From contig NZ_JANIBO010000001.1 in the NCBI RefSeq assembly GCF_024506395.1, positions 1,674,001-1,738,000 of the forward strand: DNA of 64,000 nucleotides, written 5' to 3'. The stretch is from Cetobacterium sp. NK01 (GTDB lineage Bacteria; Fusobacteriota; Fusobacteriia; Fusobacteriales; Fusobacteriaceae). The notes beneath the pieces were generated by a model, which had not been told where the DNA came from, searched no databases, and saw only the letters and a list, made by a program, of their open reading frames with translations. Every line of letters begins with the position of its first letter. The stretch's first letter is position 1. Shown piece by piece: positions 1,299-10,760 of this stretch. The position numbers were made by a program, and so were the translations under genes.

Positions 1299-1304
1299 TA
1301 ATAG

Positions 1305-1332
1305 AGTGGAGTTTAAAAGCTCCACTTTTTTT
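1305..1332 (+). terminator. Rho-independent terminator after gltX
   Basis: AGTGGAG (1305-1311) pairs with CTCCACT (1320-1326) and is followed directly by a run of T. It ends the gltX transcript and separates it from the next cassette. Confidence 0.85.
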
Positions 1333-1409: not shown

Positions 1410-2324
1410 ATGAAAAATCATATTTTACTGGGAAAGTTATTAATGAATGCCTTTAAAATACTAGGAAAAGCACAAAAAGAAATAGAGATAGAGTTAAATA
1501 AATTTAAATTTTCAGAAGAAATAGTAAAAGACTTTAAAAATCTAAATTTTAAAGAGTCATTTAAGAAGAATTTTTTTACATTATTAATAATATCTCTCCT
1601 TATAGAAAGTAAAGTGTCTAAAAAATATATTATAAGTTATACTAAAATTATAATATATTTAAGACAAATTGTTACTTCTACAGATAATATTTTAGACAAT
1701 GAAAACAAAGGCCTAATTTTTATAAAAAAATTAAAAAATAATATTGTTTCTAATAGTTTAGTGATGTTAATGTGTCAAAACCTTTTAACAAAAGAGTGTT
1801 TAGAAATTACTAAAGGAAATGATGAAGCAGTAAAAAAAATATTTGAAAAAATATATATAATTGCTATAAGTGAGAGTTTAAGAGATAAATCACAATATAA
1901 AGAATATCCAAAAGATAAATATATTTTAGAAGAGATACATAGTGGTATAGGAGGTGAACTTTTAAAAATAAGTTTAGAAATTCCATTAATTGTTGAAGAA
2001 AATTTAAAATTAAAAGAATTTTCAAAAGGCATATATGAAATAGGAATGTCTTTACAGGCTTTAGATGATTTTTTTGATATTGATGAAGATGAGGAAAGTG
2101 GTAAGATAAATCTTTTAAAAGCGGAGTTGGTATATAAAAAAATAGAAAAAAAAGATGAAGAGATAAAAGAAGAATACTTAAAAAAAGTTTCATCTAATGC
2201 TTATAATGGGTTTAAAATTTTAGAAAATAATGATTTTCCGATAAATCAAAAAGAAGCAAAGAAAGTATTAAAGAAATTATTTGAATTGAGAGGATTAAAA
2301 GAATATACATATATCTTAGACTAA
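1410..2324 (+). CDS. Divergent polyprenyl (isoprenyl diphosphate) synthase-like protein
   Basis: A 304-residue, mostly helical protein that looks like a remote trans-isoprenyl diphosphate synthase. The second aspartate-rich motif is clear (QALDDFFDID, about residues 215-224), followed by a GK. The first is degraded: DNILDNE, with Asn for the second Asp of DDxxD, and NKG where RRG is usual. The length suits the family. It opens a three-gene cassette (9 bases to the next gene) behind a strong AAGGAGGG site. Catalysis is uncertain; it could make a short prenyl diphosphate or be a non-catalytic relative. A housekeeping IspA-type enzyme is presumably elsewhere. The fold call rests on motif spacing alone. 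Confidence 0.6.
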   Translation: MKNHILLGKLLMNAFKILGKAQKEIEIELNKFKFSEEIVKDFKNLNFKESFKKNFFTLLIISLLIESKVSKKYIISYTKIIIYLRQIVTSTDNILDNENKGLIFIKKLKNNIVSNSLVMLMCQNLLTKECLEITKGNDEAVKKIFEKIYIIAISESLRDKSQYKEYPKDKYILEEIHSGIGGELLKISLEIPLIVEENLKLKEFSKGIYEIGMSLQALDDFFDIDEDEESGKINLLKAELVYKKIEKKDEEIKEEYLKKVSSNAYNGFKILENNDFPINQKEAKKVLKKLFELRGLKEYTYILD

Positions 2325-2333
2325 GGAGGAGAA

Positions 2334-2795
2334 ATGAAAAAATATATTACTTTTCTATTTTTATTAATATTTTGTCAGATATTTAGTAAAGATCCTTATG
2401 TTGGTTATTGGGAAATGCCAGACAAAAAAGTTATAATAGAGATTAAAAAAATAGATCAAGAATACGTTGGATATGTGAGATGGTTAAAAGATTTAAAATA
2501 TCCAAAAGGTGATTCAATGGAAGGAAAAGAGCAGATTGATAGAAATAATCCTGATAAAAATTTAAAGAATAGAAAGGTTATGAATTTGCAGGTTGTAGGA
2601 GGACTAAAATTAAATAAAAAAGGTGATGCAATAACAGATGGTTGGATTTATGATTCGTGGAATGGAAAAAAATATTATGGAGCAGCGAGAGTTATAGATG
2701 AAAATACTTTAAACTTAAAAGGTTCTTTAGATCCCTGGGGTCTGTTAGGATATTCAATGAAAGTAAAAAGAGTACAATTACCAAAAGAAAAGTAG
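2334..2795 (+). CDS. Secreted DUF2147 family protein
   Basis: A 153-residue protein with a cleavable signal peptide (hydrophobic residues 4-17, cleavage probably near FSKDP) and a single DUF2147 domain. Recognised by GYWEMPDKKVIIEI near the start, the DRNNPDKNLKNRKVM block, the GWIYDSWNGKKYYGA segment and the C-terminal GLLGYSMKVKRV. These domains are small lipocalin-like beta barrels of unknown ligand, exported to the periplasm. It has a strong AAGGAGGAG site and abuts the next gene, so it is probably co-transcribed with both neighbours. The function is unknown. Confidence 0.75.
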   Translation: MKKYITFLFLLIFCQIFSKDPYVGYWEMPDKKVIIEIKKIDQEYVGYVRWLKDLKYPKGDSMEGKEQIDRNNPDKNLKNRKVMNLQVVGGLKLNKKGDAITDGWIYDSWNGKKYYGAARVIDENTLNLKGSLDPWGLLGYSMKVKRVQLPKEK

Positions 2796-2804
2796 GTGAA
2801 AGAT

Positions 2805-4112
2805 TTGGAGTTAAAAAGATTAAGCATAACAAATTGGCAAAATATAGAATATCTGAATATTGAATTTGAAAAAATGTTAATACTAATTGGCGAATCAAAT
2901 AGAGGAAAAACTAGTATTCTAAAGGCTTTATCTGCAATTATAGGAAGTTATGAGATTAAAGAGAATGATTTTAAAAATAGAGATAGAGTTATTGAGATAA
3001 AAATAAAATATTTTTTTAAAGAAAAGGGTTTCTTTACATTAAAAATGACAAAAAAAATAGGAGAAAAAAATAGATATATTCTAATAAGTCATGGAGTTGA
3101 AGAAGAGTTAACGATAGAGGAAATTAAGAGTAAGTTTTTTTATGTAAAAGGAGTTGTTATATCTTCTAAAGAAAATGGAGTACATAATGCACTACATCAA
3201 ATGAAAGAAATATTTCTTTTACAAAATAAAGAAAGTAAAATTATTAAAGAGTTAGAAAGTAAGTTAAAACATATAGAAACTAATATTTTATCACAAAGTT
3301 TACAAAGAAAAGTATTTTTTAGTTTTTTAAAAAAAATATTAGCAGATATAGAAATATATGAGATGGATTTAAAAAATATATTTTATAGTATATTTTTAAT
3401 ATTCGAAGAACCAGAACTACATTTAAACCCACAAGAGAGTAGAGAAATGTATTATTTACTAATTAAATTATCTAAAATAGGAGTTCAAATAGTAATGGAA
3501 ACTCACTCTAGTTATTTTGTGGGATTAAAACAATATAAATCTATTTGCTTACTTAGAAAAGTAAAAAATAATATAAAAGTTTATCAACATACTGGAAAAC
3601 TTTTAAATGGAGATGAGATTAAAAACTTTAATATGAACTATTGGATAAATCCAGATAGAGGCGAGATGTTTTTTGCTAAAAAAGTAATATTGGTAGAAGG
3701 ACAAACTGATAAGATTGCTATTTCATACTTAGCTAAAAAATTAGATATATATAATTATAACTATTCAATAGTAGAGTGTGGAAGCAAAAGTATAATACCA
3801 CAATTTATAAAAGTATTAAATGCTTATAAAATACCGTATGTAGCTGTTTATGATAAAGATAACCATAAATGGAGAAGTGAGACAGAATTAGAAAGTTCGA
3901 ACTTAAAAAATAAAAATATAAAAAAAATAATAAATAAATATATAGGCGACTTTATTGAATTTGAAAATGATATAGAAGAAGAGATTTACCATGAAGAGAG
4001 AGAAAGAAAAAATTATAAAAATAAACCGTATTATACTTTACAAAAAATAAATGAGGATAACTACTTGATACCTAAAAAATTAGAAGAGAAAATAAGAAAA
4101 ATTTATAAATAA
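2805..4112 (+). CDS. Compact OLD-family ATPase with C-terminal Toprim domain
   Basis: About 435 residues. The N-terminus is an SMC/RecF-like ATPase half with Walker A GESNRGKTS (about residues 29-37), and a Walker B EEPELHLNP is followed by ETHSSYF, a typical OLD H-loop. The C-terminus is a Toprim domain (VILVEGQTDK, then AVYDKDN), as in OLD nucleases that cut DNA in phage defence or repair. It is shorter than usual class 1 OLD proteins, and no ABC signature (LSxGxQ type) is visible between the Walker motifs. I place the start at TTG 2805 because AGGTGA (2794-2799) sits five bases before it; GTG 2796 is possible but has no ribosome site. It closes the cassette. Nuclease activity is inferred. 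Confidence 0.7.
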   Translation: MELKRLSITNWQNIEYLNIEFEKMLILIGESNRGKTSILKALSAIIGSYEIKENDFKNRDRVIEIKIKYFFKEKGFFTLKMTKKIGEKNRYILISHGVEEELTIEEIKSKFFYVKGVVISSKENGVHNALHQMKEIFLLQNKESKIIKELESKLKHIETNILSQSLQRKVFFSFLKKILADIEIYEMDLKNIFYSIFLIFEEPELHLNPQESREMYYLLIKLSKIGVQIVMETHSSYFVGLKQYKSICLLRKVKNNIKVYQHTGKLLNGDEIKNFNMNYWINPDRGEMFFAKKVILVEGQTDKIAISYLAKKLDIYNYNYSIVECGSKSIIPQFIKVLNAYKIPYVAVYDKDNHKWRSETELESSNLKNKNIKKIINKYIGDFIEFENDIEEEIYHEERERKNYKNKPYYTLQKINEDNYLIPKKLEEKIRKIYK

Positions 4113-4120
4113 AATCATAA

Positions 4121-4151
4121 AAAATAGAGCTTGTAAGCTCTATTTTCTTTT
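4121..4151. terminator. Bidirectional terminator between convergent genes
   Basis: A perfect inverted repeat, AAAATAGAGCTT (4121-4132) and AAGCTCTATTTT (4135-4146), with T-rich flanks on both strands. It serves the OLD-like gene on the plus strand and the TSUP gene on the minus strand. Confidence 0.85.
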
Positions 4152-6082: not shown

Positions 6083-7705
6083 TTATACATTGTACATATC
6101 TTTTATTTTAGCTTGTAACTCTTCATCAGCAATATAGTCATCATATTCCATTAACTTATCAACAAGTCCGCTTGGAGTAATCTCAATAATTCTATTAGCT
6201 ACTGTTTGAATAAACTCATGGTCGTGAGCACCGAATAGTATAGTTCCTTTAAAGTTAGTTAAAGCTTTATTAAGAGAAGTAATTGACTCAAGATCTAAGT
6301 GGTCAGTAGGATTATCAAAGATTAAAACATTTGCATTAGTAAGCATCATTCTTGATAACATACATCTAACTTTTTCTCCTCCAGAAAGAACTTTAGCCTT
6401 TTTAGTAGCTTCTTCTCCAGAGAATAACATTCTTCCTAAGAATCCTCTAACAAAAGCGTCATGTTGATCAGGAGAATATTGTCTTAACCAGTCAATTAAA
6501 TCTAAATCACAGTTTTCAAAGAATGCAGAGTTATCTTTTGGCATATATGCTTGAGTAGTTGTAACTCCCCATGTATAAGTACCACTATCTGCTTCCATCT
6601 CACCAGATAATATAGAGAATAAAGTTGTTTTAACAATATCGTTTTGAGAAATAAATACAACTTTATCATTTGTATTTACTGTAAATGATACATTATCTAA
6701 AATCTTAACTCCATCGATAACTTTTGTAAGATTTTCAACTTTAAGAAGATTGTTTCCAGCATCTCTTTCAGGCTTGAATTCAACAAATGGATACTTTCTA
6801 TTAGATATTTGCATATCTTCAAGTTGTAATTTCTCAAGTTGTTTCTTTCTAGAAGTTGCTTGTTTTGATTTAGATGCGTTAGCACTGAATCTAGCAATGA
6901 ATTCTTGAAGTTCTTGTCTCTTTTGATCTAATTTTTTATTCTTGTTATTTATTAATGTTTGCATTAATTGGTTAGATTCGTACCAGAAGTCGTAGTTTCC
7001 AACATACATCTTAACTTTTCCATAATCGATATCAGCTATGTGAGTACAAACTTTGTTTAAGAAGTGTCTATCGTGAGATACAACAATAACAGTAGTATCT
7101 TCTAAATTCATTAAGAACTCCTCAAGCCAAGCTATAGCTTGGATATCAAGTCCATTTGTAGGCTCGTCAAGTAATAGAACATCAGGATTTCCAAATAAAG
7201 CTTGAGCTAGTAAAACTTTAACCTTATCGGGTTCGCTTAATTCTCTCATTAATTTATAATGTAAGTCAGCTGTTATTCCAAGACCTGTTAAAAGCATTTC
7301 AGCTTCAGTTTCAGCTTCCCATCCATTTAATTCAGCAAACTCTCCTTCAAGTTCAGCAGCTCTCATACCATCTTCATCAGAAAATTCACTTTTAGCATAT
7401 ATTTCATTTCTCTCTTCGATTATCTTCCAAAGCTTTGTATGTCCCATTAAAACAACGTTTATAACTGACTCATCTTCATGAGCAAAGTGATCCTGTTTAA
7501 GAACAGCCATTCTTTTATTTTTATCAAAGATTACCTCTCCTTCAGTAGGATCTAAATCCCCTGAAAGTATTTTTACAAATGTTGATTTTCCAGCACCGTT
7601 AGCACCAATAAGTCCATAACAGTTTCCAGGAGTAAACTTAACATTTACATCCTCAAAAAGCTTTCTACCAGAAAATCTCATACTTAGATTACTAGTTGCT
7701 ATCAT
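6083..7705 (-). CDS. ABC-F ATPase, YbiT/YkpA type
   Basis: A 540-residue soluble protein with two ABC domains and no membrane segments. These proteins bind the ribosomal E site and relieve stalled translation. Domain 1 has Walker A GANGAGKST and Walker B DEPTNGLD. Its signature region reads LSEPDKVKVLLAQALF, a degenerate form usual in this subfamily. A charged helical linker lies at about residues 240-300. Domain 2 has signature LSGGEKVRCML, but its Walker A position reads ISQNDIVKTT and its Walker B reads DNPTDHLD, lacking the catalytic Glu. The site before ATG 7705 is AGGAGG. It stands alone. The subfamily call rests on general motif layout. Confidence 0.9.
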   Translation of the reverse strand: MIATSNLSMRFSGRKLFEDVNVKFTPGNCYGLIGANGAGKSTFVKILSGDLDPTEGEVIFDKNKRMAVLKQDHFAHEDESVINVVLMGHTKLWKIIEERNEIYAKSEFSDEDGMRAAELEGEFAELNGWEAETEAEMLLTGLGITADLHYKLMRELSEPDKVKVLLAQALFGNPDVLLLDEPTNGLDIQAIAWLEEFLMNLEDTTVIVVSHDRHFLNKVCTHIADIDYGKVKMYVGNYDFWYESNQLMQTLINNKNKKLDQKRQELQEFIARFSANASKSKQATSRKKQLEKLQLEDMQISNRKYPFVEFKPERDAGNNLLKVENLTKVIDGVKILDNVSFTVNTNDKVVFISQNDIVKTTLFSILSGEMEADSGTYTWGVTTTQAYMPKDNSAFFENCDLDLIDWLRQYSPDQHDAFVRGFLGRMLFSGEEATKKAKVLSGGEKVRCMLSRMMLTNANVLIFDNPTDHLDLESITSLNKALTNFKGTILFGAHDHEFIQTVANRIIEITPSGLVDKLMEYDDYIADEELQAKIKDMYNV

Positions 7706-7873: not shown

Positions 7874-8830
7874 GTGAATTTATTTACTCCTTTAAACATA
7901 AAAAATAAGAAGTTAAAAAATAGAGTTGTATTACCTCCTCTAGTAAGATTTTCAATGGTTGAAAAAGATGGGTTAGTAACAGAGTCACTACTTGAATGGT
8001 ATAAAGATGTAGCTGAAGGTGGTGCAGGATTAATTATTGTTGAAGCTAGTTGTGTAGCAGAGGATGGGAAATTAAGAGATAATCAGATAGGGATATGGGA
8101 AGATTCTTTTATAGAGGGATTGTCAAAAATTGCAGCAATAGGAAAAAAATATGAGGTTCCTATGTTGATACAAATTCATCATGCAGGTTTTAAAGAAAAA
8201 GTAGCTGAAGTACCTGAAGAACTTTTAGACCAAATTTTAAATCAATTTGTAGAAGCTTTTAAAAGAGCTAAAAAAGCTGGTTTTGATGGCGTTGAAATAC
8301 ATGGAGCACACACATACTTGATATCCCAATTAAATTCTAGAATATGGAACCTAAGAACAGATAAATATGGTGGTTCTTTGGAAAAAAGGATGTTTTTTAC
8401 AGAGGAGTTAATAAGAAGAACAAAAAAGTTATTTAATGATGATTTTATTTTAGGATATAGAATGGGAGGTAATGAACCCGAGTTAGAAGATGGAATAAAA
8501 ATAGCTAAATATCTAGAAAAATTAGGCGTGGATTTAATACATGTATCTTCTGGAGTACCAAACCCAGAAAAAAAACAAGAGATAAAAATAGATTTACCAG
8601 ATGATTTTCCTTTTGACTGGGTAGTTTATTTAGGGGTAGAGATAAAAAAGCATGTAAATATTCCTGTTATTGGAGTAAGAAATATAAAAACAGAGGAACA
8701 AGCAAGTTTTTTAATAGAAAATGAGATGTTAGATTTAGTTGCTATTGGTAGAGGAATGATAGCTAGACCAAATTGGGTGGAATTTGCTAAAAAAGAGTAC
8801 TTTAAAAGAACTGGAAAAATGGTGGATTAA
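7874..8830 (+). CDS. Old yellow enzyme family NADH:flavin oxidoreductase
   Basis: A 318-residue single-domain FMN TIM barrel without the C-terminal Fe-S/FAD extension of 2,4-dienoyl-CoA reductases. Family marks are LFTPLNIKNKKLKNRVVLPP at the N-terminus, IQIHHAGF, the substrate/FMN pair IHGAHTYLISQ, RTDKYGGSLEKR, and the phosphate loop LVAIGRGMIARP. It probably reduces activated alkenes, quinones or nitro compounds; the real substrate is unknown. The start is GTG 7874 with GAGAGG eight bases upstream. Its stop overlaps the earP start (TAATG, 8828-8832), so the two are translationally coupled. Confidence 0.85.
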   Translation: MNLFTPLNIKNKKLKNRVVLPPLVRFSMVEKDGLVTESLLEWYKDVAEGGAGLIIVEASCVAEDGKLRDNQIGIWEDSFIEGLSKIAAIGKKYEVPMLIQIHHAGFKEKVAEVPEELLDQILNQFVEAFKRAKKAGFDGVEIHGAHTYLISQLNSRIWNLRTDKYGGSLEKRMFFTEELIRRTKKLFNDDFILGYRMGGNEPELEDGIKIAKYLEKLGVDLIHVSSGVPNPEKKQEIKIDLPDDFPFDWVVYLGVEIKKHVNIPVIGVRNIKTEEQASFLIENEMLDLVAIGRGMIARPNWVEFAKKEYFKRTGKMVD

Positions 8831-9996
8831 TGGAAATAAAAAGTTTAGATATCTTCTGTGAAATTATTGATAACTTTGGTGATATTGGAGTTGTTTATAG
8901 AGTTGCAAAAGAGTTTAAAAAAATATATAATGAAGAGATAAAAATTAGAGTTTTTTTAAATAGATTGGATGAATTTTTAGCTTTAAATAAAAGAGCAAAA
9001 AATATAGGATATCAAAACATAGACGGAATAGAATACATAACTAATGAATATTTGACTAAAAATATATGTACATTTTCTCCGGCAAATGTTATAATAGAGG
9101 CCTTTGGATGTAATATTTTACAAGAGTATTTGGAAAAAGCTAAGGAACAATCTAGTTTACTTATTAATTTAGAATATTTATCTGGAGAGAGTTGGATAGA
9201 AAGTGTACACTTGATGGAGTCTCCAATAGGAGCAAAGAAATTAAGAAAGTATTTTTTTATGCCAGGGTTCAAAGAAAATACTGGCGGAGTTATAGTAGAT
9301 AGCCTGTTTTTAGATAGAAAATTAAAAGTTCAGACAAATAAAGAGTATTATTTAAACAAATATTTAAAGGATTTAAAAGATAAGGATTATTTTGTAGGAA
9401 CTATATTTAGTTATGAAAAGAATTTTATACCTCTTCTAAATGTTTTATTAAAAAATAGTAAAAATAATTGTTTATTAGTACTAGGTGAAAAATCTCAAGA
9501 AAGTATAAAATCGATTTTATTAGATTTAAAATTTATAGAAAGTTCAAAAAATGTCTTTGATTTTAAAAATATAAAAATTAAGTTTATGCCGTTTTTAGAA
9601 CAAGAAGATTACGAAGAGTTAATTAACTTAGTTGACTATAATTTTGTAAGAGGGGAAGATTCTTTTGTGAGATCTTTACTTACAGGGAAACCATTTATTT
9701 GGCATATATATTTACAAGAAGAAATGGCGCATATGGATAAAATAGATGGTTTTATAGAACGATATAAAGAAACTTTAAAAGATTTAAATTTAGAGGATTC
9801 TTTAAATATTCACACAAAGCTATTAAGAGATTACAATTTAAGAGATAGTAATTCTTTAGAACTTGGAAAAGAAGAGTATGAAGACTTTTTTAAAGAGTTT
9901 GAAAATATTTCTAAATTAACTAAAGTTTATTCAGAGTATATTCAATTAAAATGTAATCTTATAGATAAACTAAATAGATTTATTTTAAAATATTAG
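8830..9996 (+). CDS. earP: EF-P arginine-32 rhamnosyltransferase EarP
   Basis: Transfers rhamnose from dTDP-L-rhamnose to Arg32 of EF-P, activating it to rescue ribosomes at polyproline. The 388 residues carry the family's N-terminal block DIFCEIIDNFGDIGVVYR with the two aspartates of the DNxGD motif (residues 14 and 18). The conserved glutamate is in FVRGEDSFVRS (about residue 276), inside the GT-B donor site. It sits 11 bases before efp, whose product has the matching Arg32. It starts by a one-base overlap with the flavin oxidoreductase gene. The dTDP-rhamnose genes it needs are not in this window. Confidence 0.92.
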   Translation: MEIKSLDIFCEIIDNFGDIGVVYRVAKEFKKIYNEEIKIRVFLNRLDEFLALNKRAKNIGYQNIDGIEYITNEYLTKNICTFSPANVIIEAFGCNILQEYLEKAKEQSSLLINLEYLSGESWIESVHLMESPIGAKKLRKYFFMPGFKENTGGVIVDSLFLDRKLKVQTNKEYYLNKYLKDLKDKDYFVGTIFSYEKNFIPLLNVLLKNSKNNCLLVLGEKSQESIKSILLDLKFIESSKNVFDFKNIKIKFMPFLEQEDYEELINLVDYNFVRGEDSFVRSLLTGKPFIWHIYLQEEMAHMDKIDGFIERYKETLKDLNLEDSLNIHTKLLRDYNLRDSNSLELGKEEYEDFFKEFENISKLTKVYSEYIQLKCNLIDKLNRFILKY

Positions 9997-10007
9997 GAGG
10001 TTCAATT

Positions 10008-10571
10008 ATGAAAACTGCTCAAGAACTAAGAGCTGGAAGTACAGTAAAGATTGGAAACGATCCTTACGTAATTCTAAAAGCAGAGTATAACAAATCAGGA
10101 AGAAACGCTGCTGTTATGAAGTACAAAATGAAAAACTTATTAAATGGAAACATATCTGACGCTATATATAAAGCGGATGATAAAATGGATGATATCAGAC
10201 TTGATAAAGTTAAAGCTGTATATTCATATAACGATGGAGATTTCTATGTATTCTCAAATCCTGAAACTTGGGATCAAATCGAATTAAAAGATGAAGATTT
10301 AGGAGACGCTTTAAACTATTTAGAAGAGTCAATGGAATTAGAAGTAGTTTACTATGAGTCTACTCCAGTTGCTGTTGAGTTACCAACTTTCGTTGAGAGA
10401 CAAGTAACATATACTGAGCCTGGACTAAGAGGAGATACTTCTGGAAAAGTAATGAAGCCAGCTAAAATAAACACTGGATTCGAAATTCAAGTACCTTTAT
10501 TTGTTGAGCAAGATGAGTGGATCAAAATTGATACAAGATCTAACGAATATGTAGAGAGAATTAAAAAGTAA
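10008..10571 (+). CDS. efp: Elongation factor P, Arg32 (EarP-dependent) type
   Basis: A 187-residue, three-domain translation factor that binds between the P and E sites and promotes peptide bonds at proline runs. The tip of domain I reads KSGRNAAVMK, with arginine at residue 32, where lysine marks the EpmA or YmfI systems; this matches the adjacent earP. The C-terminal signature TYTEPGLRGDTSG is intact. The ribosome site is a strong AGGAGG. Codons are richer in C-ending forms than in neighbouring genes, as expected for high expression. A terminator follows within 10 bases. Confidence 0.97.
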   Translation: MKTAQELRAGSTVKIGNDPYVILKAEYNKSGRNAAVMKYKMKNLLNGNISDAIYKADDKMDDIRLDKVKAVYSYNDGDFYVFSNPETWDQIELKDEDLGDALNYLEESMELEVVYYESTPVAVELPTFVERQVTYTEPGLRGDTSGKVMKPAKINTGFEIQVPLFVEQDEWIKIDTRSNEYVERIKK

Positions 10572-10578
10572 TAAAATT

Positions 10579-10608
10579 AGGTTGAAGATTATATCTTCAA
10601 CCTTTTTT
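10579..10608 (+). terminator. Terminator after efp
   Basis: AGGTTGAAGAT (10579-10589) pairs with ATCTTCAACCT (10593-10603), followed by TTTTT. It ends the flavin oxidoreductase-earP-efp operon. Confidence 0.9.
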
Positions 10609-10640
10609 AATTACTTGAAAACTATTCAAAAAATAAAAAT

Positions 10641-10760
10641 GCCACAAGGGATAACAGGAGTAATCTTATACCCGTATTAAATACCTTAGTGCTGCTTCCT
10701 TCCAGATCTGACACGGTTCGATAATAATACGCCATAAGGCTCCTGCCACCACACTTGTGA
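10641..10760 (-). ncRNA. ffs: Signal recognition particle RNA, small (4.5S-like) form
   Basis: On the minus strand the molecule contains the invariant SRP helix 8 core GTCAGATCTGGAAGGAAGCA (complement of about 10689-10712), with the GGAA tetraloop and the GCAGCA internal loop. Its ends pair: CACAAG near the 5' end (10758) with CTTGTG near the 3' end (10642). About 118 bases long, so the Alu domain is absent. It binds Ffh to target membrane proteins co-translationally. A T-rich run follows the 3' helix. Ends are good to a few bases. Confidence 0.93.

Follow-up and report, generated by a model that had tools for sequence, protein, structure and literature searches.

Comparative evidence for a conserved pair of genes, for a divergent prenyl-synthase-fold protein and a DUF2147 protein, beside an independently inherited OLD nuclease gene in Fusobacteriota

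Introduction

Do three tightly packed genes lying between two terminators necessarily belong to one system? The question is raised by a locus of Cetobacterium sp. NK01, within the 64,000-nucleotide stretch of DNA analysed here (the window), in which genes for an isoprenyl-synthase-like protein (gene 1), a probably secreted DUF2147 protein (gene 2) and a compact OLD nuclease (gene 3) follow each other on the same strand. A first-pass annotation had read them as a possible undescribed defence or envelope-stress cassette. We asked which of the three genes are inherited together across Fusobacteriota, and what their proteins may do.

Results

Layout of the locus

The three open reading frames lie where they had first been annotated (Table 1), with 9 nt between gene 1 and gene 2, and either 0 nt (GTG 2796) or 9 nt (TTG 2805) between gene 2 and the OLD gene. 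Close OLD homologues start at the position of TTG 2805 (MEIKRL-), which is likely the true start. The gene upstream of gene 1 is gltX, as identified by Pfam tRNA-synt_1c. The bordering terminators originally placed at 1305 and 4121 correspond to the two hairpins of Table 1, and spacing and terminators together suggest that the three genes form one transcription unit.

Table 1. Features of the locus, in window coordinates
Feature	Position	Strand	Basis
Terminator-like hairpin closing gltX, upstream border	1303..1328	+	11 pairs, T tail; -13.8 kcal/mol, z -3.3
Gene 1, putative isoprenoid synthase of class I, divergent, with predicted trans-prenyl-diphosphate-synthase fold, 304 aa	1410..2324	+	ORF, motifs, model
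Gene 2, DUF2147 of the gene-1-linked subfamily, signal-like N-terminal hydrophobic helix, predicted lipocalin-like barrel, 153 aa	2334..2795	+	ORF, PF09917, model
Gene 3, compact OLD ATPase-Toprim nuclease, 438 aa from GTG; neighbour outside the pair's system	2796..4112	+	ORF, Pfam
Bidirectional terminator-like hairpin, downstream border	4121..4146	.	Both strands; -12.0 kcal/mol, z -4.5

The OLD nuclease and its inheritance

The family calls made for genes 2 and 3 were borne out, as PF09917 and PF20469 both exceed their cut-offs. The gene 3 protein scores 67.8 bits against the OLD Toprim family PF20469 (cut-off 23.2) and also matches AAA_15 above cut-off, the two together describing an ABC ATPase with a C-terminal Toprim domain whose acidic residues E298, D302, D350 and D352 occur in 20/20 aligned homologues. 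It matches the solved OLD chain 6p74 (E 5e-23) and is indeed compact, with 435-438 aa against 528, or about 90 fewer. It further scores 45.7 bits against DUF2813, presumably the YbjD family, and matches the Old/GajA families of PADLOC.

Besides the tight spacing between terminators, such matches are what favours a single defence or stress cassette of three genes: OLD relatives function in Gabija and retrons (PMC12796447), and anti-phage phenotypes upon induced expression of YbjD are described in PMC13261556. The distribution of the genes nevertheless makes this reading exceedingly improbable. OLD is present as a single copy in 50/61 Fusobacteriaceae genomes, and is therefore probably no recently acquired defence cassette. 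Among the 28 genomes of this family that hold both genes, gene 1 adjoins OLD in 8, all within the Cetobacterium-type genus group from which the window comes, and across the 61 genomes the presence of one is independent of that of the other (Fisher p 0.74; genus-stratified p 0.35). In Cetobacterium-type genomes OLD remains by gltX, and what lies between them varies from nothing to an ankyrin gene, gene 1 alone or the pair: OLD immediately follows gltX with neither gene 1 nor DUF2147 in one genome (G011), and is accompanied by the ankyrin gene in two others (G007, G012). Class 1 OLD nucleases are encoded by single genes with no UvrD-like helicase next to them; clustering of OLD neighbours, most of which carry no annotation, returned no cluster common to all genera. 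By this comparison of genomes, OLD is shown to be an independently inherited neighbour of genes 1 and 2.

Co-occurrence and adjacency thus led us to reject a functional unit of all three genes, and the single cassette first proposed is not upheld. The adjacency across fusobacterial genomes on which that proposal hinged holds for gene 1 and DUF2147 (27/27 co-present, 24/28 in tandem) and fails for OLD, which is regularly found apart from gene 1 with no co-occurrence.

Nor did the idea of a phage-defence unit find support. No PADLOC family matched gene 1 or gene 2 at E <= 1. Among 50,697 phage records none matched gene 1, and none of its 26 matches in a pattern-based scan of viral contigs was confirmed; plasmids contributed one record (F. 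varium). On these counts we also rejected a phage or plasmid origin.

Linkage of gene 1 and DUF2147

Gene 1 is present in 33/61 Fusobacteriaceae genomes and its specific DUF2147 in 27/61. All 27 of the latter also carry gene 1, at most 4 kb away (Fisher p 7e-12; genus-stratified p 5e-5, 61 genomes). The DUF2147 concerned is set apart from others by profile scores that are bimodal across the phylum, reaching at least 180 bits in 28/98 Fusobacteriota genomes with the next best at 114, so that by sequence the gene-1-linked proteins are a distinct subfamily within Fusobacteriota. Each of the 28 high-scoring genomes carries gene 1. The two genes are in tandem in 24, convergent in 1 and divergent within 4 kb in 3 (G040-42, on opposite strands with 3.5-3.8 kb between them), and protein clustering of gene 1 neighbours places DUF2147 within 5 kb of gene 1 in ten genera. 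Given the co-occurrence of genes 1 and 2 and the independence of OLD, the real unit is therefore gene 1 plus DUF2147, which linkage and co-occurrence in these genomes show to be a conserved two-gene module, apparently undescribed before. The open-licence PMC literature held no paper combining 'polyprenyl synthetase' and 'DUF2147', and the titles and abstract openings of the articles listed from it on Fusobacterium terpene synthases, Cetobacterium isoprenoids and Cetobacterium somerae genome operons contained nothing on the pair.

Five family genomes (G005, G006, G009, G017, G027) retain gene 1 without any linked DUF2147, so gene 1 may act alone; it is intact in G006 and G009, and present in two copies in G027. 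In G014, the nearby DUF2147 is of another kind, outside the gene-1-linked subfamily.

A constant third partner was sought within 5 kb of gene 1, and no cluster other than DUF2147 occurred in more than three genera. The only three-genus cluster is a broad ABC-ATPase (c3). Genes for a glycosyltransferase, an M20 peptidase, a PALP enzyme, a cobalamin adenosyltransferase and a tRNA ligase lie near single gene 1 loci or those of one or two genera. In three genomes (G017, G018, G043) a two-component system lies divergently to gene 1 and is suggestive as a partner, but its regulators resemble each other across genera at only about 42%, scarcely above their likeness to a different regulator of that type (about 40%).

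More distant gene 1 relatives keep other company. One (L169) lies beside an MMPL exporter and another (L171) beside a methyltransferase and an apparent ABC exporter pair, the latter recognised by eye. The stretches examined around both loci contain no window-like DUF2147. These relatives score 14.4 and 22.9 bits, respectively, against PF00348, whose cut-off is 27.

The gene 1 protein

At E <= 1 no Pfam family, PF00348 included, matches the window's gene 1 protein, which shows only a weak match to an FPP-synthase profile (NF045485, E 0.006). Despite such weak profile matches, its initial description as isoprenyl-synthase-like stands: the AF2 model (pLDDT 92.8) has a clear prenyl-synthase fold that spans the whole chain and aligns with a polyprenyl synthase over 266 residues (Z 20.2, rmsd 3.3). 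The 50 structural matches listed all belong to the prenyl diphosphate synthases or kindred enzymes, and Foldseek also finds prenyl synthases (E 2e-4), with modest TM-scores of about 0.4-0.6. The gene 1 profile cross-matches IspA-like ORFs of fusobacteria, and hhalign aligns it with IspA (E 8.6e-7) over 99 columns of the C-terminal half only, including the DDxxD, with D219, D220 and D223 facing IspA D221, D222 and D225.

Two aspartate motifs, D92-N-x-x-D96 and D219-D-x-x-D223-x-x-E-D227, were found. Their acids (D92, D96, D219, D220, D223, E226, D227) are invariant in 20/20 aligned homologues, which contradicts the degraded catalytic motif reported initially. The modelled fold and these alignments show a prenyl-synthase fold with invariant motifs of the metal-binding type. 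Three pairs of gene 1 sequences gave dN/dS of 0.09-0.18, a sign of purifying selection, values that are approximate because synonymous changes approach saturation (dS 0.40-1.35). The dN/dS analysis used 15 rows (gene 1, 3 pairs; gene 2, 6; OLD, 6); 11 rows with G004 were left out, where both classes of change were near saturation, apparently through a wrong-strand reading. A catalytically dead homologue with a structural or regulatory task, the pairing then having some other role, would agree with the failure of Pfam to recognise gene 1 and with its altered IPP site, but the invariant acids and the purifying selection make it very improbable, and they led us to reject a degraded or dead gene 1 as our main reading.

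The site of the second substrate has changed. The first aspartate motif is DNxxD in 20/20 homologues and not the DDxxD or DDxxxxD of trans-isoprenyl diphosphate synthases, and the residues that hold IPP in IspA are mostly replaced: GGKRLRP by FKKNFFT, KTG by IGG and RRG by NKG, while KTTYP is absent. The KTG replacement is also seen by hhalign, whereas the N-terminal mapping (GGKRxRP, RRG) comes from one MAFFT alignment in which the placement of the first aspartate motif is ambiguous. It is because of these replacements that we infer gene 1 not to elongate. Elongation with IPP through altered contacts, yielding a special polyprenyl lipid of the envelope that DUF2147 would handle, seems unlikely to us. 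Prenyl diphosphate synthases are the best structural matches, the second (SARM) DDxxD is fully retained and K53, found in 15 of the 18 sequences covering the site, aligns with the GGK lysine; but the Arg and Pro of GGKRxRP, the Lys and Thr of KTG and both Arg of RRG (the second now Lys) are replaced, the KTTYP loop is missing, and the FARM is DNxxD throughout.

A head-to-head enzyme of the squalene/phytoene synthase type, joining two allylic diphosphates without IPP, is a quite improbable option. Its first motif would be of the DxxxD type, as in gene 1, the gene 1 signature LQxxDDxxDxxEDxxxxK-N is one we take to resemble the second motif of such synthases, and there is a weak profile match to CrtM (8is6, E 0.53). 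However, the 50 structural matches listed are all prenyl diphosphate synthases or relatives, the lack of squalene/phytoene synthases being no more than an absence from that list, and the corresponding Pfam family is unmatched at E <= 1.

The DUF2147 protein

Gene 2 scores 69.3 bits against PF09917 (DUF2147; cut-off 27). It begins with a signal-like hydrophobic helix (residues 2-16), and its model (pLDDT 86) matches the lipocalin HP1028 (4inn; E 8e-8, TM 0.66-0.69), as does its sequence profile (E 1.4e-10); the model thus shows a lipocalin-like fold. W26, W50, W104 and W109 are invariant in 18/18 partner DUF2147 sequences. No function of DUF2147 is stated in the titles and abstract openings of the DUF2147 papers found in the open-licence PMC literature.

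ComQ is an enzyme of the prenyl-synthase fold whose substrate is encoded by the neighbouring gene, and gene 1 might likewise prenylate a peptide or protein, possibly its own partner, whose tryptophans are invariant. We regard this as very improbable indeed. The gap of only 9 nt between the two genes leaves no room for a small peptide gene, the partner is folded and probably secreted, and five genomes keep gene 1 with no partner linked to it.

Discussion

Our preferred reading, to which we give slightly less than an even chance, is that gene 1 makes a non-elongated isoprenoid from an allylic diphosphate, that the secreted DUF2147 binds the product in the envelope, and that OLD is an independent neighbour. 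Gene 1 would act in the cytoplasm as a class I isoprenoid synthase, using Mg to ionise an allylic diphosphate such as the GPP or FPP made by the cell's IspA. It would release a small isoprenoid or terpenoid without chain elongation, after cyclisation, hydrolysis or joining to another acceptor, and the DUF2147 barrel would take up this hydrophobic product or a derivative and carry or shield it in the periplasm or outer envelope. OLD would be the single-copy Fusobacteriaceae nuclease behind gltX in the window's genus, the pair having inserted between the two. The first-pass idea of an envelope role survives in this form for gene 1 and DUF2147, though not for a three-gene unit.

Gene 1 resembles the trans-isoprenyl diphosphate synthases (IspA/FPPS, octaprenyl synthase) in its all-helical fold, its second DDxxD motif and its profile-level homology, and departs from them in its DNxxD, its replaced IPP-site residues, the missing KTTYP loop and its sub-Pfam score. 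Loss of IPP-binding residues with retention of the second aspartate motif is a feature of IDS-derived terpene synthases that it shares. Insect terpene synthases of this type, likewise prenyl-synthase-derived, arose with loss of such IPP motifs according to PMC10962984, but they are animal enzymes of separate origin.

HP1028 of H. pylori resembles gene 2 in profile and fold but is not known to be linked to an isoprenoid synthase, whereas gene 2 belongs to a subfamily that is linked to gene 1 and distinct within Fusobacteriota. YceI, another bacterial lipocalin, holds isoprenoids inside its barrel, as stated in PMC9113575, an analogy that extends to fold class only, DUF2147 not being YceI. The same paper describes the lcoA-bcnA operon, where a YceI lipocalin lies beside an enzyme-type membrane/redox partner, cytochrome b561; it differs from our pair in its lipocalin family, its partner and the absence of a synthase. 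As for gene 3, it shares the ABC ATPase and Toprim domains of class 1 OLD nucleases such as T. scotoductus OLD (PMC7049728) and E. coli YbjD (PMC13261556), and differs in its shorter chain and in being single-copy in most Fusobacteriaceae. Cran1, a class 5 OLD protein, is according to PMC12796447 likewise a lasting cell gene and is reported as apparently not antiviral; it is archaeal, and the likeness is one of description, kinship aside.

A more far-reaching version of our preferred reading, possible but rather doubtful, is a biosynthesis-plus-carrier module: a new prenyl-synthase-derived family would make a terpenoid without elongation, and a co-inherited secreted lipocalin-fold protein would hold it outside the cytoplasm, where it might for instance protect the envelope as an antioxidant, carry a signal or serve as a chemical weapon. 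If true, Fusobacteriota would possess a terpenoid system missed by Pfam, NCBIfam and PADLOC profiles.

The neighbouring OLD gene, for its part, is to be read differently from before, since it probably did not arrive recently as a defence cassette. Gene 1 becomes a candidate for an unrecognised bacterial isoprenoid or terpene enzyme, and a testable one because Pfam fails to see it, yet its metal site looks intact and its site for the second substrate is changed. Its steady pairing with gene 2 offers a concrete hypothesis on what the ligand of at least one DUF2147 subfamily may be.

Distribution and arrangement of the three genes

The first-pass annotation had joined gene 1 (a divergent class I isoprenoid synthase of 304 aa), a DUF2147 gene and the compact ATPase-Toprim nuclease OLD into one transcription unit and a possible functional cassette, and the coordinates, spacing and terminators of the three genes are as it described. 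The host genome is fusobacterial and 3.1 Mb in size. From the layout of the sequence, a single transcript over genes 1-3 is plausible, and the true start of OLD is probably the TTG at 2805, where close homologues begin.

Features of the window locus and of the EarP region
Feature	Position (window)	Strand	Remarks
Gene 1	1410-2324	+	Downstream of gltX and the gltX terminator
Gene 2 (DUF2147)	2334-2795	+	ORF
Gene 3 (OLD)	2796-4112	+	ORF
EarP	8830-9996		EF-P rhamnosyltransferase (PF10093, E 2e-93)
187-aa gene	10008		Downstream of EarP; presumably EF-P, judged by its size

Each of the three proteins was searched in all 61 Fusobacteriaceae genomes. Gene 1 was matched in 33 and OLD in 50, and the close DUF2147 (at least 50% identity) in 27, every further DUF2147 match being at most 44% identical. 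Because the genomes are related, the p values serve as guides only: gene 1 and the close DUF2147 are associated (both in 27 genomes, gene 1 only in 6, DUF2147 only in 0, neither in 28; Fisher p 7e-12, shuffled within genera p 5e-5), whereas gene 1 and OLD are not (both in 28, gene 1 only in 5, OLD only in 22, neither in 6; Fisher p 0.74, shuffled within genera p 0.35). Across the 98 genomes of the phylum, the DUF2147 profile finds 29 places in 28 genomes at 180-268 bits, with the next place at 114, and gene 1 is present in all 28. Its carriers are the 33 family genomes and one genome of another family (G067); the gene 1 profile matches 38 genomes, in four of which the match is weak (E 1e-5 to 6e-4) and falls in ORFs with the usual IspA motifs.

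Of the 28 genomes with both genes, 24 have them in tandem with DUF2147 downstream, the gap being ~650 nt in G045 and at most ~140 nt in the others. The two genes are convergent in G002, and in G040-42 DUF2147 is found 3.5-3.8 kb from gene 1 on the other strand. Gene 1 is split in two frames in G055 and G067, and by contig ends in G010. The outer flanks of the pair vary between genera. We did not find the pair in print in the titles and abstract openings of the open-licence PMC papers that the searches listed.

Six family genomes with gene 1 and no close DUF2147 (G005, G006, G009, G014, G017, G027) count against a strict pair. G014 (Fusobacterium gastrosuis) has a more distant DUF2147 ~800 nt from gene 1 in convergent orientation, G017 retains only a broken DUF2147 fragment, and in G005, which has no DUF2147, gene 1 is itself interrupted by an internal stop. 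Gene 1 is intact in G006 and G009. F. varium (G027) carries two intact copies, both without DUF2147: one is on the mobilizable plasmid pFV113-g1-1 (L199 / L101), in a stretch between two autotransporter genes, and the other (L102) has a serine recombinase next to it, as well as a phage antirepressor gene.

At one locus (L109, in G043) the gene-1-linked DUF2147 occurs twice (6280-6822 and 10218-10703), flanking gene 1 on each side, with a glycosyltransferase upstream. An OmpR-type response regulator and a histidine kinase stand divergent near gene 1 there and at L098 (G018) and L110 (G017; one ORF intervenes). They might control the pair; the OmpR-type regulators are only ~42% alike between the two genera.

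OLD as an independent resident

Of the 28 genomes that carry gene 1 and OLD, 8 have them side by side (G000, the window's own, and G003, G004, G005, G006, G008, G009 and G010), all from the window's genus group. This limited adjacency, together with their independent presence, speaks against the proposed three-gene unit. In the other 20 the two are separated, either by 140 kb or more or by lying on different contigs; in G048, where both lie near contig ends, no OLD piece was found on gene 1's contig. The slot between gltX and OLD contains gene 1 and DUF2147 in G000, G003 and G008, gene 1 without DUF2147 in G005 and G009, an ankyrin-repeat gene in G007 and G012, and no gene of at least 80 aa in G011. 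The order is gene 1 then OLD in G006, and gene 1, DUF2147, OLD in G004 and G010 as in G000, gltX not being seen in G004 or G010. Neither gene 1 nor OLD was found in G013 (82% complete). Given this variable slot, and since G007 and G012 carry the gene 1-DUF2147 pair elsewhere with OLD still behind gltX, OLD is thus resident here, and the pair forms a unit of its own.

At E <= 1e-30 the OLD profile finds one copy in each of 50 of the 98 Fusobacteriota genomes (partial in G048 and G059) and none in the 37 outside Fusobacteriaceae; looser cut-offs add distant OLD/ABC-type matches in five genomes. That OLD is single-copy and, among Fusobacteriota, restricted to one family suggests vertical inheritance. 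All 20 aligned OLDs keep the Toprim acids E298, D302, D350 and D352. The P-loop lysine is absent from two of these rows, both of genus g5, with their Toprim acids unchanged. OLD was read in five of the seven g5 genomes (G029, G030, G031, G033, G034), and in all five the Walker A lysine is gone, GK[ST] having become GTN, GTD or GVN (L085, L089, L090, L122, L126, L128). These residues raise the possibility that the g5 nuclease is no longer under ATP control.

Parts of the OLD literature describe a dimerisation domain inserted in the ATPase of the solved class 1 protein from T. scotoductus (PMC7049728), a role in the cell cycle, apparently not in defence, for the archaeal OLD Cran1 (PMC12796447), and anti-phage phenotypes upon induced expression of YbjD (PMC13261556). 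In 8 of 20 OLD-centred loci (L113, L114, L118, L119, L120, L122, L126, L128) the gene transcribed divergently from OLD belongs to a single cluster; its member at L113 matches the YkuD_2 family of L,D-transpeptidases (PF13645, E 1.5e-64).

Predicted functions of gene 1 and DUF2147

Twenty gene 1 homologues from 19 of 34 genomes were aligned. R85, D92, N93, D96, E98, K100, R158, I180, G181, G182, Q216, D219, D220, D223, E226, D227 and N234 are invariant in all 20, and the catalytic motif formerly called degraded is thus a fixed variant. The dN/dS of gene 1 is 0.09-0.18 (three pairs among the window and two relatives, near saturation). In structure comparison, its AF2 model (pLDDT 92.8) aligns with prenyl diphosphate synthases at Z values reaching 20.2 (266 residues); where a helical model has no clear match, the best Z is typically ~14. 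The TM-scores from Foldseek are modest (~0.4-0.6, E 2e-4). The gene 1 profile matches FPP/GGPP synthases in the PDB only weakly (best E 0.015).

In IspA-type enzymes, the motifs GGKRLRP, RRG, KTG and KTTYP contact isopentenyl diphosphate (IPP). The hhalign alignment of gene 1 to eight Fusobacteriota IspA-type sequences spans 99 columns (E 8.6e-7); it pairs H177 and DDxxD, and sets K180-T181 of the IspA KTG opposite I180-G181. MAFFT places FKKNFFT of gene 1 opposite GGKRLRP and NKG opposite RRG, and finds no counterpart of KTTYP in gene 1. Insect terpene synthases derived from prenyl synthases are described as marked by loss of such IPP motifs (PMC10962984), an analogy and not a proof. Because the IPP-motif residues are likewise mostly replaced in gene 1, we favour reading it as a putative non-elongating isoprenoid or terpene enzyme.

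Gene 2 matches PF09917 at 69.3 bits. The sole PDB match of its profile at E <= 10 is HP1028 (E 1.4e-10), to which its model also aligns (E 8e-8, TM 0.66-0.69); the PDB entry title places HP1028 in the lipocalin family, and it is counted as a lipocalin in print (PMC9570263). Bacterial lipocalins of the YceI family are reported to hold isoprenoids (octaprenyl phosphate, ubiquinone-8) inside the barrel (PMC9113575), but since DUF2147 is not YceI they offer a precedent at the fold level only. Two further DUF2147 paralogues of G000 fall outside the linked subfamily (C1:670448-670912, 111 bits; 1132986-1133405, 42 bits; against 267).

A gene 1 search of genome contigs returned 15 loci, 13 fusobacterial and two from MAGs (L169, Proteobacteria, 30% identity; L171, bacterium, 29%). 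The relative at L169 is downstream of an MMPL-type exporter (PF03176); that at L171 is upstream of a methyltransferase and preceded by two ORFs that resemble, by eye, an ABC permease and an ATPase. The stretches examined at these loci contain no window-like DUF2147. The exporters at these two loci would fit a hydrophobic product leaving the cytoplasm. In place of a three-gene cassette, the comparison of sequences argues for a two-gene module of gene 1 and DUF2147 beside an independent OLD.
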